From contig NZ_AOFD01000004.1 of the NCBI RefSeq assembly GCF_000332815.1, positions 62,001-126,000 on the forward strand: a stretch of DNA of 64,000 nt, given 5' to 3'. Position 1 is the stretch's first letter, and every line of letters begins with the position of its first letter. Shown one piece after another: positions 15,046-44,294 of this stretch. The DNA is from Arthrobacter nitrophenolicus (GTDB lineage: Bacteria > Actinomycetota > Actinomycetes > Actinomycetales > Micrococcaceae). The notes beneath the pieces are model-generated. The model did not search any database. It had not been told where the DNA came from and worked only from the letters and a program-made list of their open reading frames with translations. A program made the position numbers and the translations under genes.

Positions 15046-15064
15046 GTCTCAAAATATGAGATGC
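15046..15064. promoter_or_regulatory. putative IclR-type (LtbR/NdgR-like) operator upstream of ilvD
   Basis: GTCTCAAAATATGAGATGC contains TCTCA-5-TGAGA, an inverted repeat. It matches 17 of 19 bases of the site between the IclR gene and leuC at 42112-42130. The rest of 14895-15157 has no gene. Confidence 0.6.
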
Positions 15065-15144
15065 CAGTCCACTATCTGGCAGAAATAATCCGGATTTTCG
15101 GCTATGACCGCCTTACGCGGTCCTTCCGGCCTCCGTCGGAGCCA

Positions 15145-16922: not shown

Positions 16923-16953
16923 TACCGTTGGTCCTGCATCGCGGGATCAAAAG

Positions 16954-16972
16954 GTGGACAATGTTGTCCACA
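16954..16972. promoter_or_regulatory. palindrome of two DnaA-box-like arms upstream of ilvB leader
   Basis: GTGGACAA-TG-TTGTCCAC is a perfect inverted repeat (16954-16971). The right arm extends to TTGTCCACA, the DnaA-box consensus known from Streptomyces and Mycobacterium; the left arm reads TTGTCCACC on the other strand. It overlaps the likely -35 region of the ilvBNC leader promoter (TAGGGT at about 16981). The binding protein is unproven. Confidence 0.5.
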
Positions 16973-17030
16973 TGGTGAGATAGGGTGGTGCTTCGTTGAC
17001 ACCCATCCCACCAGAGGGAAAACTGAACGC

Positions 17031-17087
17031 ATGACTTTCGTTACCGCCGGCACCGTCGTCGTCCTTACCAAGCGCGTGGCACTATAG
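17031..17087 (+). CDS. ilvBNC leader peptide
   Basis: An 18-codon open frame, MTFVTAGTVVVLTKRVAL, preceded by AGAGGG and followed by an intrinsic terminator before ilvB. The run Val-Val-Val-Leu (GTC GTC GTC CTT) and further Val and Leu codons are what a ribosome would stall on when valine or leucine is short. Complementary segments support alternative folds: TTCGTTACC (17037-17045) pairs with GGTAACGAA (17096-17104), and GCGCGTG (17072-17078) pairs with CACGCGC (17109-17115). This is the classic attenuation layout for ilv operons. The peptide itself probably has no other role. Confidence 0.85.
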   Translation: MTFVTAGTVVVLTKRVAL

Positions 17088-17115: not shown

Positions 17116-17153
17116 AAACCCCTCGAAGAGCCGCCAGGCTGAGGGGTTTTTTT
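17116..17153 (+). terminator. ilvBNC attenuator (intrinsic terminator)
   Basis: AAACCCCTC pairs with GAGGGGTTT (17116-17124 with 17141-17149) around a 16-base loop, ending in a run of seven T. It lies 29 bases after the leader-peptide stop and 50 bases before ilvB. It is the terminator half of the attenuator. Confidence 0.85.
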
Positions 17154-17202: not shown

Positions 17203-19110
17203 ATGAGCAAAGGATCGCCGATCAGCCCCTCGCTGTTGGCTACCAAGTCCACTGGAGCCACCAAGGCTCCGGAACGCGCCGACCGGACGGCTGACAATGC
17301 CGCCGTCGTCGCCGACCTTGCTGCCGCCTCTCCTGTCCTTGGGCCGAACAACGTTGTACCCCCAACGGTGATGACCGGCTCGCAAGCTATTGTCCGCTCG
17401 CTCGAAGAACTCGGCGTCGACGATATTTTCGGTTTGCCTGGTGGCGCGATCCTGCCCACCTACGACCCCTTGATGGCCTCCACCATGAATCACGTGCTGG
17501 TCCGTCACGAACAGGGAGCCGGCCACGCCGCGCAAGGCTACGCCATGGTCACCGGACGGGTTGGCGTCTGCATCGCCACCTCGGGCCCGGGTGCCACCAA
17601 CCTCGTTACCGCCATCATGGATGCCCACATGGACTCCGTGCCGCTGGTGGCCATCACCGGCCAGGTGTCCAGTGGAGTGATCGGCACCGACGCTTTCCAG
17701 GAAGCGGACATCGTGGGCATCACCATGCCCATCACCAAGCACTCGTTCCTGGTCACCGACCCCAACGACATCCCGCACGTCATGGCGGAGGCGTTCCACC
17801 TCGCCTCCACCGGCCGTCCCGGCCCGGTGCTGGTGGATGTTGCCAAGGACGCCCAGGTGGGCCAGATGACGTTCTCCTGGCCGCCGAAGATCGACCTGCC
17901 CGGATACCGCCCCGTCACCCGGGGCCACAACAAGCAGGTGCGCGAAGCCGCGAAACTCATCGCCGCTTCCACCAAGCCTGTCCTGTACGTGGGCGGCGGT
18001 GTGGTCAAGGCACACGCAAGCGCCGAACTGCTGGCCCTCGCCGAGGCCACGGGCGCCCCGGTGGTGACCACGCTGATGGCCAAGGGCGTGTTCCCGGACT
18101 CGCACCCGCAGCATGTGGGCATGCCCGGCATGCACGGCAGTGTTTCCGCCGTTACGGCGCTGCAGCAGGCCGACCTCCTGATCACCCTGGGCGCACGGTT
18201 CGACGACCGCGTTACCGGCGTGCTCAAGACGTTCGCGCCGATGGCCAAGGTCATCCACGCCGACATCGACCCCGCGGAAATCTCCAAGAACCGCACCGCC
18301 GATGTCCCCATCGTCGGTTCGGTCAAGGAAATCATTCCCGAACTGACCGACGCCGTGCATGCGCAGTTCGGCAGCACCGGAACCCCGGACCTCACCACGT
18401 GGTGGGCTTTCCTGAACAACCTCAAGGAAACCTACCCGCTGGGCTGGACCGAACCGGACGACGGCCTCACCGCTCCGCAGAAGGTCATCGAACGCATCGG
18501 CGCCCTCACCGGCCCCGAAGGCGTGTACGTGGCAGGCGTGGGCCAGCACCAGATGTGGGCAGCGCAGTTCATCAAGTACGAGCGCCCGCACGCCTGGCTG
18601 AACTCGGGCGGTGCCGGAACCATGGGTTACGCCGTACCGGCCGCCATGGGCGCCAAGGTGGGGGAGCCGGACCGGGTGGTCTGGGCCATCGACGGCGACG
18701 GCTGCTTCCAGATGACCAACCAGGAACTGGCCACCTGCGCCATCAACAACATTCCCATCAAGGTTGCGGTCATCAACAACTCCTCACTGGGCATGGTGCG
18801 CCAGTGGCAGACCCTCTTCTACGAAGGCCGCTACTCCAACACCGACCTCAACACGGGCCACGACACCGTCCGCATCCCGGACTTCGTCAAGCTGGGGGAG
18901 GCCTACGGCTGCGCGTCGTTCCGCTGCGAACGCGACGAGGACATCGACGCCACCATCCAGAAGGCCCTCGAGATCAACGACCGGCCCGTTGTCATCGACT
19001 TCGTGGTCAGCCCCAACTCGATGGTGTGGCCGATGGTGCCCGCCGGCGTGAGTAACGACCAGATCCAGGTCGCCCGCAACATGACCCCGGAATGGGAAGA
19101 AGAGGACTGA
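17203..19110 (+). CDS. ilvB: acetolactate synthase large (catalytic) subunit
   Basis: A 635-residue ThDP-dependent enzyme that condenses two pyruvates to acetolactate, or pyruvate with 2-oxobutyrate, the first common step of branched-chain amino-acid synthesis. Catalytic Glu103 lies in [15 protein letters not shown], the central FAD-binding domain follows, and the ThDP/Mg motif [15 protein letters not shown] continues into [17 protein letters not shown]. The first 55 residues are a low-complexity extension usual in actinobacterial forms. It is the first gene of ilvBNC and is controlled by the leader-peptide attenuator in front of it. ilvN starts 2 bases after its stop, so the subunits are made together. 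Confidence 0.97.
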
Positions 19111-19112
19111 GC

Positions 19113-20731
<1,619 letters not shown>

Positions 20732-29025: not shown

Positions 29026-29742
29026 ATGCACGAACCATCCTCGACAGAACCGGAAGCAGACAGCGCCGCCCACCGCCACCGGACGGACGGGCAGCTGAGG
29101 CGCCTGCGCCTCCTCGCCGGTGCGCTCCTGCTGGCCGGGCTGGCATGCCTGGTGCTGTTCCTGCCCTCCCTGGCCGGACGGGATGGAAAGACTTCCCTTC
29201 CGGAGGTTTCCGCTCCTGCGGCCACAACCGCGGCGGTGGCCACGGCCCCGGCACCTTCCAGGGCCGCACCAGCACCTGCCACCAGCCTGACTCCCGAGGG
29301 GCCGGCGGCTGCAGCACCCCAACACCTGGCCTACCCGGCGGCGGGGATCGATGTGGTGGTCCACCCCCTCGACCCGAGTGCTGAGGACCAGGAACGCCGG
29401 ACCATCATTCCGCCGTCCACGAAGGACGGCTACTGGCTCACGCCCTACGGCACCCCCGGTGCCGGCTCCGCAAACACCACCTACATCGTGGGCCACAGCT
29501 GGCAGGACCAGGACGCGCCCTTCAACCACCTCAGCACCAGGGCCGCTGCCGGAGACCTGCTGACGGTCACCACCTCAACCGGCCAGCTGGCCTATCGGGT
29601 GGAATCTGTCACCACCTACGAAAAGTCCAGCCTGAAGGACAGCCCCATCTGGGCCGTCGCACCCAACACGGTGGTGCTCATTTCCTGTTATACGGACGAC
29701 CTGTGGGGGACGAACGTGGTGGTCGTGGCAACGCCCGCATAA
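29026..29742 (+). CDS. class F-like sortase
   Basis: A 238-residue membrane-anchored transpeptidase. One N-terminal membrane helix (about residues 29-47) is followed by an Ala/Pro linker to residue 100 and the sortase beta-barrel. Catalytic His157 (YIVGHSW) and Cys221 (VLISCYTDD) are present. The third catalytic residue, an Arg in the strand after the Cys, is not evident: the strand reads LWGTNVVVVATPA. I chose ATG 29026, which has GGGGAG upstream; the frame extends upstream through the preceding gene's end. The neighbouring gene encodes its likely substrate. The class assignment is moderate. Confidence 0.85.
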   Translation: MHEPSSTEPEADSAAHRHRTDGQLRRLRLLAGALLLAGLACLVLFLPSLAGRDGKTSLPEVSAPAATTAAVATAPAPSRAAPAPATSLTPEGPAAAAPQHLAYPAAGIDVVVHPLDPSAEDQERRTIIPPSTKDGYWLTPYGTPGAGSANTTYIVGHSWQDQDAPFNHLSTRAAAGDLLTVTTSTGQLAYRVESVTTYEKSSLKDSPIWAVAPNTVVLISCYTDDLWGTNVVVVATPA

Positions 29743-29751
29743 TGAGACGGC

Positions 29752-29782
29752 TTGACCACGATATGGATCGCTTGGCTACCCT
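29752..29782 (+). promoter_or_regulatory. leuB promoter (leaderless)
   Basis: TTGACC (29752-29757) and TACCCT (29777-29782) are separated by 19 bases, and the ATG of leuB begins 6 bases after the -10 box. Transcription should start at or beside the ATG. Confidence 0.55.
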
Positions 29783-41377: not shown

Positions 41378-42097
41378 TCAGTCGTTGTTCTTGCGCAGGG
41401 CTTCGGTGAGGATGCGCCCGGCGTTGCACACCACTTCCGCGTGCAGCCGGCCGGGCTGGCGGGTGAGCCGCTCGATGGGGCCGGAGATGGACACGGCCGC
41501 GATCACCCGGCCGGACGGCCCGCGCACGGGTGCAGAAACGGAGGCAACCCCCGGCTCACGTTCGCCGAGGCTCTGGCCCCAGCCCCGGCGTCGTACGCCC
41601 GCCAGCACGGTGGGCGTGAACCGGGCGGACTGCAGGCCTTCCAGCAGTCGGTCGTGGTCCTCCCATGCCAGGAGCACCTGCGCAGCGGATCCGGCCTTCA
41701 TGGACAGCTGGGTGCCCACCGGAATGGTGTCGCGAAGGCCGATGGGGCGTTCCGCCGACGCCACGCATACCCGCCAGTCACCCTGGCGGCGGAAGATCTG
41801 TGCACTCTCGCCGGTGGCGTCCCGCAACTGCATCAGGACTGGTCCTGCGGAGGCGATCAGGCGGTCCTCGCCGGCGGCGGACGCCAGTTCAACGAGCCTG
41901 CTGCCCAGGACGAAGCGGCCCTGGATATCCCGGCTGACAAGCCGGTGGTGGACCAGTGCAAGTGCCAGCCGGTGGACAGTGGGCCGGGCCAGGCCGGTGG
42001 CAGCTACCAGCTGTGCCAGCGTGGTGGGGCCGGCCTCCAGTGCATCAAGCACCTGGGCAGCTTTATCAATGACACCGACTCCACTAGAATTGTCCAT
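41378..42097 (-). CDS. IclR-family transcriptional regulator, NdgR/LtbR-like
   Basis: A 239-residue regulator. The N-terminal winged helix spans about residues 8-65 (GVIDKAAQVLDALEAGP, LARPTVHRLALALVHHRLV). The C-terminal IclR effector domain contains RLIASAGPVLMQLRDATGES and VSISGPIERLT. Divergent placement from leuCD is the arrangement of Corynebacterium LtbR and Streptomyces NdgR, which control leuCD and other amino-acid genes. The shared inverted repeat at 42112 lies 14 bases upstream of its ATG, so it probably also controls itself. A matching site before ilvD extends the predicted regulon. I chose ATG 42097; the frame upstream runs through the operator. Confidence 0.92.
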   Translation of the reverse strand: MDNSSGVGVIDKAAQVLDALEAGPTTLAQLVAATGLARPTVHRLALALVHHRLVSRDIQGRFVLGSRLVELASAAGEDRLIASAGPVLMQLRDATGESAQIFRRQGDWRVCVASAERPIGLRDTIPVGTQLSMKAGSAAQVLLAWEDHDRLLEGLQSARFTPTVLAGVRRRGWGQSLGEREPGVASVSAPVRGPSGRVIAAVSISGPIERLTRQPGRLHAEVVCNAGRILTEALRKNND

Positions 42098-42111
42098 GTA
42101 ATGATATTGCC

Positions 42112-42130
42112 GTCTCAATATCTGAGATGC
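42112..42130. promoter_or_regulatory. putative NdgR/LtbR-like operator between the IclR gene and leuC
   Basis: GTCTCAATATCTGAGATGC contains TCTCA-5-TGAGA and differs at two positions from the ilvD site at 15046. It is 14 bases from the IclR start and 81 bases from the leuC start, so it can serve both directions. Confidence 0.65.
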
Positions 42131-42211: not shown

Positions 42212-43682
42212 ATGGCAAAGACATTGGCCGAGAAAGTCTGGGACGCGCACGTGGTGCGCAAAGGTGACGGCGACGGAGCCAACGCCCAGCCCGACCTTCT
42301 CTTCATCGACCTTCACCTGGTCCACGAGGTCACCTCGCCGCAGGCCTTCGAAGGCCTCCGCCTGGCCGGACGCAAGCTGCGCCGGCCTGACTTGACCATT
42401 GCCACGGAGGACCACAACACTCCGACGCTGGACATCGACAAGCCTATCGCCGACCTCACCAGCCGAACCCAGATCCAGACGCTGCGCAACAACTGCGCCG
42501 AGTTCGGTGTCCGGCTGCACAGCCTGGGCGACGCCGAACAGGGCATTGTGCACGTGGTTGGCCCGCAGCTGGGCCTGACCCAGCCCGGCATGACGGTGGT
42601 CTGCGGCGACTCCCACACGTCCACCCATGGTGCCTTCGGTGCACTTGCCATGGGCATTGGCACCTCGGAGGTGGAGCATGTCATGGCCACCCAGACGCTC
42701 TCCCTTAAGCCGTTCAAGACCATGGCCATCAACGTTGAGGGCACCCTCCGTCCCGGCGTCACCGCCAAGGACATCATCCTCGCCGTCATCGCGAAGATCG
42801 GCACCGGCGGCGGCCAGGGCTACGTCCTGGAATACCGCGGCTCAGCCATCCGCGCCCTGTCCATGGACGCCCGGATGACCATCTGCAACATGTCCATCGA
42901 GGCGGGCGCCCGCGCCGGCATGGTGGCCCCGGATGAAACAACCTACGCCTACATGAAGGGCCGCCCGCACGCGCCGGAGGGCGCTGACTGGGACGCTGCA
43001 GTCGAGTACTGGAACACGTTGAAGACCGACGACGACGCCGTCTTCGACGCGCAGGTGGACCTGGATGCCAACACGCTGGAGCCCTTCGTCACCTGGGGCA
43101 CCAACCCCGGCCAGGGCGTTTCGCTGTCCGACTCCGTGCCGTCGCCGGAGGACTTCGGCGACGAGAACGCCAAGGCAGCCGCGGAGCGCGCCCTGCAATA
43201 CATGGGCCTTGAAGCCGGCACCCGTATGAAGGACATCCGCGTCGACACCGTCTTCCTGGGTTCCTGCACCAACTCCCGCATCGAGGACCTCCGTGCGGCG
43301 GCGGACATCATCCGCGGCCGGGAAAAGGACCCCAAGGTCCGCATGCTGGTGGTTCCCGGTTCCGCCCGGGTCCGCCTGGAAGCCGAGGCCGAGGGCCTGG
43401 ACCGCGTGTTCAAGGACTTCGGTGCCGAATGGCGCTTTGCCGGCTGCTCCATGTGCCTGGGCATGAACCGGACCAGCTGGAGCCGGGGGAGCGCTGCGCC
43501 TCCACCTCGAACCGCAACTTCGAAGGACGCCAGGGCAAGGGCGGCCGCACCCACTTGGTGTCCCCGGTGGTGGCCGCAGCCACAGCCGTCCGCGGCACGC
43601 TCAGCTCGCCGTCGGACCTTGGCCCGGCCCCTGAACCGGCGGCCAAGCCCGCCGGAACCGCCATCCGCACCGACGCAGCTAG
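42212..43682 (+). CDS. leuC: 3-isopropylmalate dehydratase large subunit (frame broken at two sites)
   Basis: The aconitase-family large subunit, about 490 residues when corrected, that with LeuD isomerises 2-isopropylmalate to 3-isopropylmalate using a 4Fe-4S cluster. [20 protein letters not shown] and the cluster cysteines in [11 protein letters not shown] and [10 protein letters not shown] are present. The frame breaks near 43468, where AACCGGACCAG should read AACCCGGACCAG ([19 protein letters not shown]). A second loss near 43679 is needed to reach the TAG at 43680, which sits 9 bases before leuD. The start has GAAGGGAG upstream. Control is probably by the operator at 42112. Confidence 0.92.
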
Positions 43683-43691
43683 GAGCCAGCC

Positions 43692-44294
43692 ATGGAAAAG
43701 TTCACCAAGCACACCGGCGTCGGCGTTCCGCTGCGCCAGAGCAACGTCGATACCGACCAGATCATCCCCGCGGTCTACCTCAAGCGGATCACCCGCACCG
43801 GCTTCGAGGATGCCCTGTTCTCCGCCTGGCGCAAGGATCCATCCTTCATCCTGAACCAGGAGCCGTTCAACGCCGGCTCGGTCCTGGTGGCCGGCCCGGA
43901 CTTCGGTACCGGGTCCTCGCGTGAACATGCGGTCTGGGCCCTGAAGGACTACGGCTTCAAGGCGGTCCTTTCCTCCCGGTTCGCCGACATCTTCCGCGGC
44001 AATTCCGGCAAGCAGGGACTGCTCGCCGCGCAGGTGGCCCAGGACGATATCGAACTGATCTGGAAAGAGCTGGAAAACGCTCCGGGCACCGAGGTCACCG
44101 TGGACCTCGAGTCCAAGACAGTGGTGTGCGGCAACATCGTGGCACCGTTCGACATCGACGACTACACCCGCTGGCGCCTGCTGGAGGGCCTGGACGATAT
44201 CGGGCTGACCCTGCAGCACGAGGCGGACATCACGGCGTACGAGGCCACGCGTCCGGCCTTCAAGCCGAAAACCCTGCCGGCCAAGCTTTCCTGA
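43692..44294 (+). CDS. leuD: 3-isopropylmalate dehydratase small subunit
   Basis: A 200-residue swivel-domain subunit that completes the isopropylmalate isomerase with LeuC. The family signature [20 protein letters not shown] is near the N-terminus, and [19 protein letters not shown] contains the substrate-binding SSREH. The length is normal. AGGAG 6 bases before the ATG also overlaps the predicted leuC stop, consistent with translational coupling. A GC-rich hairpin at 44323 ends the unit. Confidence 0.97.

Follow-up and report, generated by a model that had tools for sequence, protein, structure and literature searches.

A DnaA-box-like palindrome upstream of ilvBNC in Arthrobacter nitrophenolicus as the probable centre of a tandem LtbR/NdgR-type operator

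Which protein, if any, reads the 18-bp palindrome GTGGACAATGTTGTCCAC upstream of ilvBNC is the question raised by this locus of the 64,000-nucleotide stretch analysed here (the window). The palindrome occupies 16954-16971, begins 77 bp past the stop codon of ilvD (end 16876) and is followed by the leader peptide of the operon; the closest named match of IlvB is that of Arthrobacter sp. Leaf137, with 97% identity. Its left arm reads TTGTCCACC, and its right arm, together with the A at 16972, gives an exact TTGTCCACA (16964-16972). An earlier note, which described a perfect palindrome with DnaA-box-like arms and an exact DnaA box on the right, was accurate in both respects. Within the window GTGGACAATGTTGTCCAC has a single match at up to three mismatches, with 0.04 other matches expected, and with the two central bases left free it occurs exactly at one place of the 4.39-Mb genome, the next best place having two mismatches.

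The conservation of the element was followed in 61 genomes of the genus, own genome included, with the DNA upstream of ilvB anchored on the conserved leader start. GG.C and GTCC of the palindrome are present in all 61 promoters, and both arms are intact as GGAC/GTCC in 60, as TGGAC/GTCCA in 51 and as GTGGAC/GTCCAC in 37 of them, which exceeds chance. Perfect 8-bp arms on both sides, however, were found in 2/61, so conservation upstream of ilvB, which the earlier note had proposed to check, holds for the core but not for the full arms. Counted from the first base of the palindrome, G3, G4, C6, G13, T14, C15, C16, A19 and T23-A27 (TGAGA) are invariant, while the two positions opening the right arm, 11 and 12, are T in 9/61 and 23/61. 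Upstream of the palindrome, Y-C-R at 16947-16949 is kept in 61/61 and G at 16945 in 55/61. This pattern indicates a conserved unit of the form GNYCR-N5-YGGAC-N6-GTCCA..AT.GTGAGAY rather than two DnaA boxes.

The binding of DnaA to two head-to-head boxes, coupling ilvBNC expression to replication state, was the first explanation offered, and the resemblance is real: the right arm is the sole exact TTRTCCACA in the window and equals the high-affinity box of Streptomyces coelicolor and Mycobacterium tuberculosis given in the accessible part of PMC4285127, and TTGTCCAC, the first eight letters of the box, is kept by the left arm in 37/61 relatives. The right arm, though, keeps these letters in 4/61, and the complete 9-mer is found in 4/61 relatives on the right and 2/61 on the left. 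The conserved block also outruns both boxes, with TGAGA and Y-C-R lying outside them, and DnaA-like 9-mers at up to one mismatch are no more frequent in the window than expected by chance (12 found against 12.0 expected). The element is thus like a known DnaA box in one exact 9-mer, and unlike it in that this 9-mer is not kept in relatives and no excess of boxes exists. The proposed DnaA link loses its footing, and we consider it very improbable.

An overlap of the palindrome with the -35 region, also suggested before, was rejected, since the conserved TTGACA, kept in 61/61 same-genus promoters, lies 24 bp downstream. That the palindrome acts as an RNA hairpin or as the terminator of ilvD is another conceivable reading, given the short distance from the ilvD stop codon and a terminator-like match on the minus strand (1 found, against 0.4 in shuffles), but the plus strand carries no T run, full complementarity of the arms is found in 2/61 relatives and the conservation extends beyond the stem, which makes this reading extremely improbable.

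The conserved block is wider than the palindrome and can be divided into two sites of 15-16 bp, A and B, with centres 21-21.5 bp apart (Table 1). The sequence supports the view that two tandem dimer sites meet in the palindrome, which is then no dimer site by itself. In S. coelicolor, the regulator NdgR has a 15-bp motif, [GT]T[CT]CAC[CA][CTA][TC][GC][TC]GGAC, and its targets include ilvB, ilvD, leuB and ndgR-leuC, as stated in the accessible part of PMC4340878. A matrix was built from 18 S. coelicolor NdgR ChIP-seq sites published there, and 63,986 positions of the window were scored. Site A (16945-16959) obtained rank 4 with a score of 13.5 and site B (16966-16980) rank 10 with a score of 12.4; the three positions above site A are unrelated and lie elsewhere. 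The palindrome, taken as a single dimer site, was rejected with a matrix score of -14.4 at 16955. Site A is imperfect in this genome, with GATCA instead of GTCCA. The same matrix places the ilvD site at 15067 at rank 20 and the best leuB position at rank 35; in the window scan it misses the ltbR/leuC site, the best position between these two genes being rank 265.

Table 1. Predicted regulatory elements and genes of the branched-chain amino acid loci in the window (positions of the window)
Feature	Position	Strand	Basis or remark
Predicted tandem LtbR-type sites before ilvD, GTCTCAAAATATGAGAT + GTCCACTATCTGGCA, centres 20 bp apart	15046..15081	+	Second best tandem of the window
Predicted operator site A, GATCAAAAGGTGGAC	16945..16959	+	NdgR matrix rank 4/63,986; genus conservation
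Palindrome of the earlier note, probably right half of site A + left half of site B	16954..16971	.	Sequence and genus alignment
Predicted operator site B, GTCCACATGGTGAGAT	16966..16981	+	NdgR matrix rank 10; GTCC and TGAGA in 61/61
Probable -35, TTGACA	16996..17001	+	61/61 relatives; 20-22 nt after TGAGAY start in 51 other-genus family loci
Possible -10, AAAACT, 17 nt from TTGACA and 6 nt before leader ATG	17019..17024	+	Inferred from sequence and alignment
Leader peptide MTFVTAGTVVVLTKRVAL	17031..17087	+	Start conserved in the genus
Predicted attenuator terminator hairpin, then U run	17116..17149	+	z -1.72 for the whole leader
ilvB, ilvN, ilvC	17203..20731	+	NCBIfam above cut-off for each
Predicted tandem LtbR-type sites before leuB, GCCCGCATAATGAGAC + GACCACGATATGGAT, centres 20.5 bp apart	29733..29768	+	Fourth best tandem of the window, 23.5
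ltbR/ndgR, IclR-family regulator, divergent to leuC	41378..42097	-	HTH_IclR and IclR_C above cut-off
Predicted tandem LtbR-type sites between ltbR and leuC, GTCCATGTAATGATAT + GTCTCAATATCTGAGAT, centres 20.5 bp apart	42092..42128	.	Best tandem of the window

The same tandem was seen in a family set of 95 ilvB loci from 31 other genera, where the inner halves are mostly 5 or 6 bases apart (4 in L184, L185, L187 and L188) and the outer halves are clear, as in GTCCACTAACTGGAC-CCTCT-GTCCATATAATGAGAC. A strict regular expression for the tandem matched 55/61 genus loci and 32/95 other-genus family loci, with 0/95 in the reversed and 0/95 in the opposite-strand controls; on both strands of the window it found the ilvB place only. 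A half-site model was trained on the 32 positive other-genus loci and compared with a null of 950 Markov-randomised upstream regions. By this model 78/95 family loci exceed 99% of the null (46/63 among the loci not used for training), and at least one passing locus occurs in 25/31 genera. The genera without any (g2, g3, g16, g21, g9 and g25) include two, g9 and g25, with short anchored upstream DNA; three loci in which anchoring left just 188-438 bases upstream (L178, L191 and L193) were scored as misses. Altogether 6/61 genus and 17/95 family loci failed these tests, including those of the LtbR-bearing genera g2, g3, g16 and g21. The distance from the start of TGAGAY to that of TTGACA is 20-22 nt in 51/51 loci having both among the 95 (20 nt in 37, 21 nt in 13 and 22 nt in one), a constant spacing that holds the operator in phase with the promoter. 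A promoter regular expression matched 59/99 family loci and entered no count. Outside the family, GTCTCA-type tandem sites are present in the ilvB promoters of L264, L262 and L311, the last two having the -35 region as part of a longer inverted repeat.

Other branched-chain amino acid genes of the window carry similar sites. With the model trained on ilvB promoters of other genera, the four highest tandem scores of the window fall at ltbR/leuC (38.5), ilvD (30.7), ilvB (29.3) and leuB (23.5), the next one scoring 17.5. In 20 random 64-kb sequences the best tandem reached up to 25.8 and 3/20 beat the score of leuB, so that the assignment of the leuB site leans also on its position. The centre spacings, 21-21.5 bp at ilvB and 20-20.5 bp at ilvD, leuB and ltbR/leuC, fall inside the 18-22 nt reported for tandem IclR-family sites in the accessible part of PMC8222616. 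The second ltbR/leuC site is exact in 61/61 genus genomes. Two exact copies of GTCTCANNNNNTGAGAY are present in the own genome, one in front of ilvD and the other between ltbR and leuC. The 61 genus genomes contain 96 exact places, of which 85 belong to these loci or to leuB: 61 just before ltbR, one per genome, 18 before ilvD and 6 at 10.6-12.4 kb downstream of ilvB, assigned to leuB by distance alone; the other 11 lie elsewhere, and the reversed pattern is present in 6/61 genomes. The exact ilvD site is thus found in 18/61 genus genomes; direct reading of L253-L256 revealed no such site, and among the ilvD promoters of 19 named loci only that of L264 scored above 19.2. With one regulator reading tandem sites before ilvD and leuB and between ltbR and leuC, the pathway would form one regulon. 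Six relatives (G012, G022, G043, G045, G051 and G054) share a GTCTCAGYGGATGAGAT site at a distance from the branched-chain genes, where it perhaps marks a further member of the regulon.

The candidate regulator is encoded in the same window, about 24 kb from the palindrome; its start codon was chosen by us. The protein has no NCBIfam equivalog above cut-off, and its orthology to LtbR/NdgR therefore rests on synteny and on 75% identity to Streptomyces matches. LtbR matches were found in 61/61 genus genomes (96-100% identity) and in 100/100 family genomes (58-100%). The start codon of ltbR falls in one LtbR-type site (42092-42107) and the other site occupies the expected place of the ltbR promoter, which suggests that ltbR may repress its own expression. 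The adjacent leuC looks frameshifted near its 3' end (43381-43720), models matching the first ~420 residues and the C-terminal part lying in another frame, either by an error of the draft sequence or in reality.

Co-occurrence of site and regulator was assessed in named actinobacterial loci (L253-L312), the regulator being sought in 46 of 60 and compared with the tandem scores; the 14 left out were 13 metagenome assemblies and one Mycobacterium, and of the 13 among these 14 that were scored, five pass the 99% null. A tandem site above 99% of the null is present in 16/34 genomes with LtbR and 0/12 without it (p 0.0035); at the 95% null the numbers are 19/34 and 1/12 (p 0.006), and with the own family left out 13/31 and 0/12 (p 0.008). 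The 12 genomes without LtbR, namely Mycetocola (2), Microbacterium (4), Pseudoclavibacter, Leucobacter, Gryllotalpicola, Subtercola, Schumannella and Agreia, which we take to belong to one family, are related, so the p values overstate the independent events and few independent losses are represented. For eleven of them no match was obtained at 1e-15, and for Agreia a 38% paralogue only. Divided by the identity of LtbR, the site is present in 13/19 genomes at 65% or more and in 3/15 below 65%. By the half-site model, 18/34 named genomes with LtbR, such as Brevibacterium and all mycobacteria tested, have no tandem site. In one g3 genome (G092) ltbR (C1:932935-933639) contains one in-frame TAA; this says little, since its ilvB tandem score of 18.1 exceeds the 95% null but not the 99% null, and the remaining three g3 genomes have a score of 0.

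A different dimeric regulator, for instance another IclR-type protein, a LysR or a GntR, might bind the palindrome, with LtbR binding the TGAGAY part only or nothing. The GTGGAC/GTCCAC halves are indeed unlike the GTCTCA/TGAGAT halves at ltbR/leuC and ilvD, and further IclR paralogues, as weak matches, are present in the genomes. Against this, both kinds of half-site stand in one operator at constant spacing in 61/61 genus loci, both kinds adjoin before ilvD and leuB, and the published NdgR motif consists of GTCCAC-type halves (accessible part of PMC4340878); the involvement of another regulator is accordingly improbable. The suggestion of the earlier note that an operator of a dimeric regulator mimics a DnaA box was right in kind, but the regulator is likely the IclR-family LtbR/NdgR, not a GntR protein, and the palindrome would be the junction of two dimer sites. 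Computation shows that the sites are present and conserved, that they match the NdgR motif, that the regulon is coherent and that site and regulator co-occur, and it is highly probable that the palindrome represents the centre of a tandem LtbR/NdgR operator that regulates ilvBNC, in one regulon with ilvD, leuB and ltbR/leuC.

The position of the operator allows a mechanism to be proposed. AAAACT and its distance of 6 nt to the leader ATG, together with TTGACA, suggest that transcription may start at or next to this ATG, and because of the short distance the leader peptide may be translated from a leaderless transcript (17019-17033). A strict sigma-70 promoter scan listed none at TTGACA/AAAACT. 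The spacing of exactly 6 nt between AAAACT and the leader ATG recurs in the genus and similarly in many other genera, and 8 nt occur in, for example, L157. Two LtbR/NdgR dimers would bind sites A and B; as the centres are two helical turns apart, the dimers would lie on one face of the DNA, where contact is possible, and binding may be cooperative. Relative to the inferred start, the centres of the sites would be at about -79 and -57, in fixed phase to TTGACA. We infer that this placement fits activation better than repression by blocking, and the LtbR pair, presumably under the influence of an effector, probably activates the TTGACA promoter, with the leader-peptide attenuator acting as a second control step on ilvBNC. 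Repression of ilvB by LtbR may also occur, in line with the title of the paper on Corynebacterium glutamicum LtbR, as cited in PMC8222616. Leader peptides with terminators before ilvB were described for Corynebacterium, Mycobacterium and Streptomyces in PMC1262725, the accessible part of which does not mention Arthrobacter.

The operator resembles that of S. coelicolor NdgR in its GTCCAC/GTGGAC half-sites, its 15-bp site and its targets (accessible part of PMC4340878). TCCCACCCACTTGAC stands in the NdgR ChIP-seq table of that paper, in a row which, judging from the order of coordinates, probably represents the ilvB peak, and precedes ilvB in 3/4 loci labelled Streptomyces (L278, L291 and L303). 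The Streptomyces site listed there, however, overlaps TTGACAC, whereas here two tandem sites lie upstream of the -35 and the second half of site B is TGAGAY. C. glutamicum LtbR is an orthologous type of regulator that controls leu genes and shares the motif KTYCRSMWYSYGRRM with NdgR, but it is titled a repressor, and control of ilvB is not among what is described in the accessible part of PMC8222616. The alternating half-sites of the tandem and three-box IclR-family sites described there are also similar, with no Arthrobacter ilvB case in that part. Among the papers that we could search, none dealt with the ilvB promoter site, the regulon or LtbR in Arthrobacter.

In 17/51 family loci TTGACA is closely preceded by a G[TC]YYR half-site, a count made without control and thus only a lead for a third site. 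Rather speculatively, and on balance doubtfully, LtbR/NdgR might form a phased ladder of dimers in steps of 20-21 bp, with a third site in part of the group that ends, like the Streptomyces motif, in the -35 TTGACAC; the upstream pair would then activate and the third site repress. If so, one protein would change the sign of its action with concentration or effector, which would reconcile the activator of Streptomyces with the repressor of Corynebacterium.

The ilvB element belongs to a known class of control elements, of which it is an unremarkable though very clean case. A perfect palindrome specific to one genome can come from the abutting halves of two adjacent sites, and a tempting link between replication and amino acid synthesis is removed as unsupported. 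The ilvBNC operon of this Arthrobacter-like group gains a candidate regulator, and a sharply defined tandem operator, the helical phase of which is kept across genera, offers a test ground for the sign of LtbR/NdgR control.
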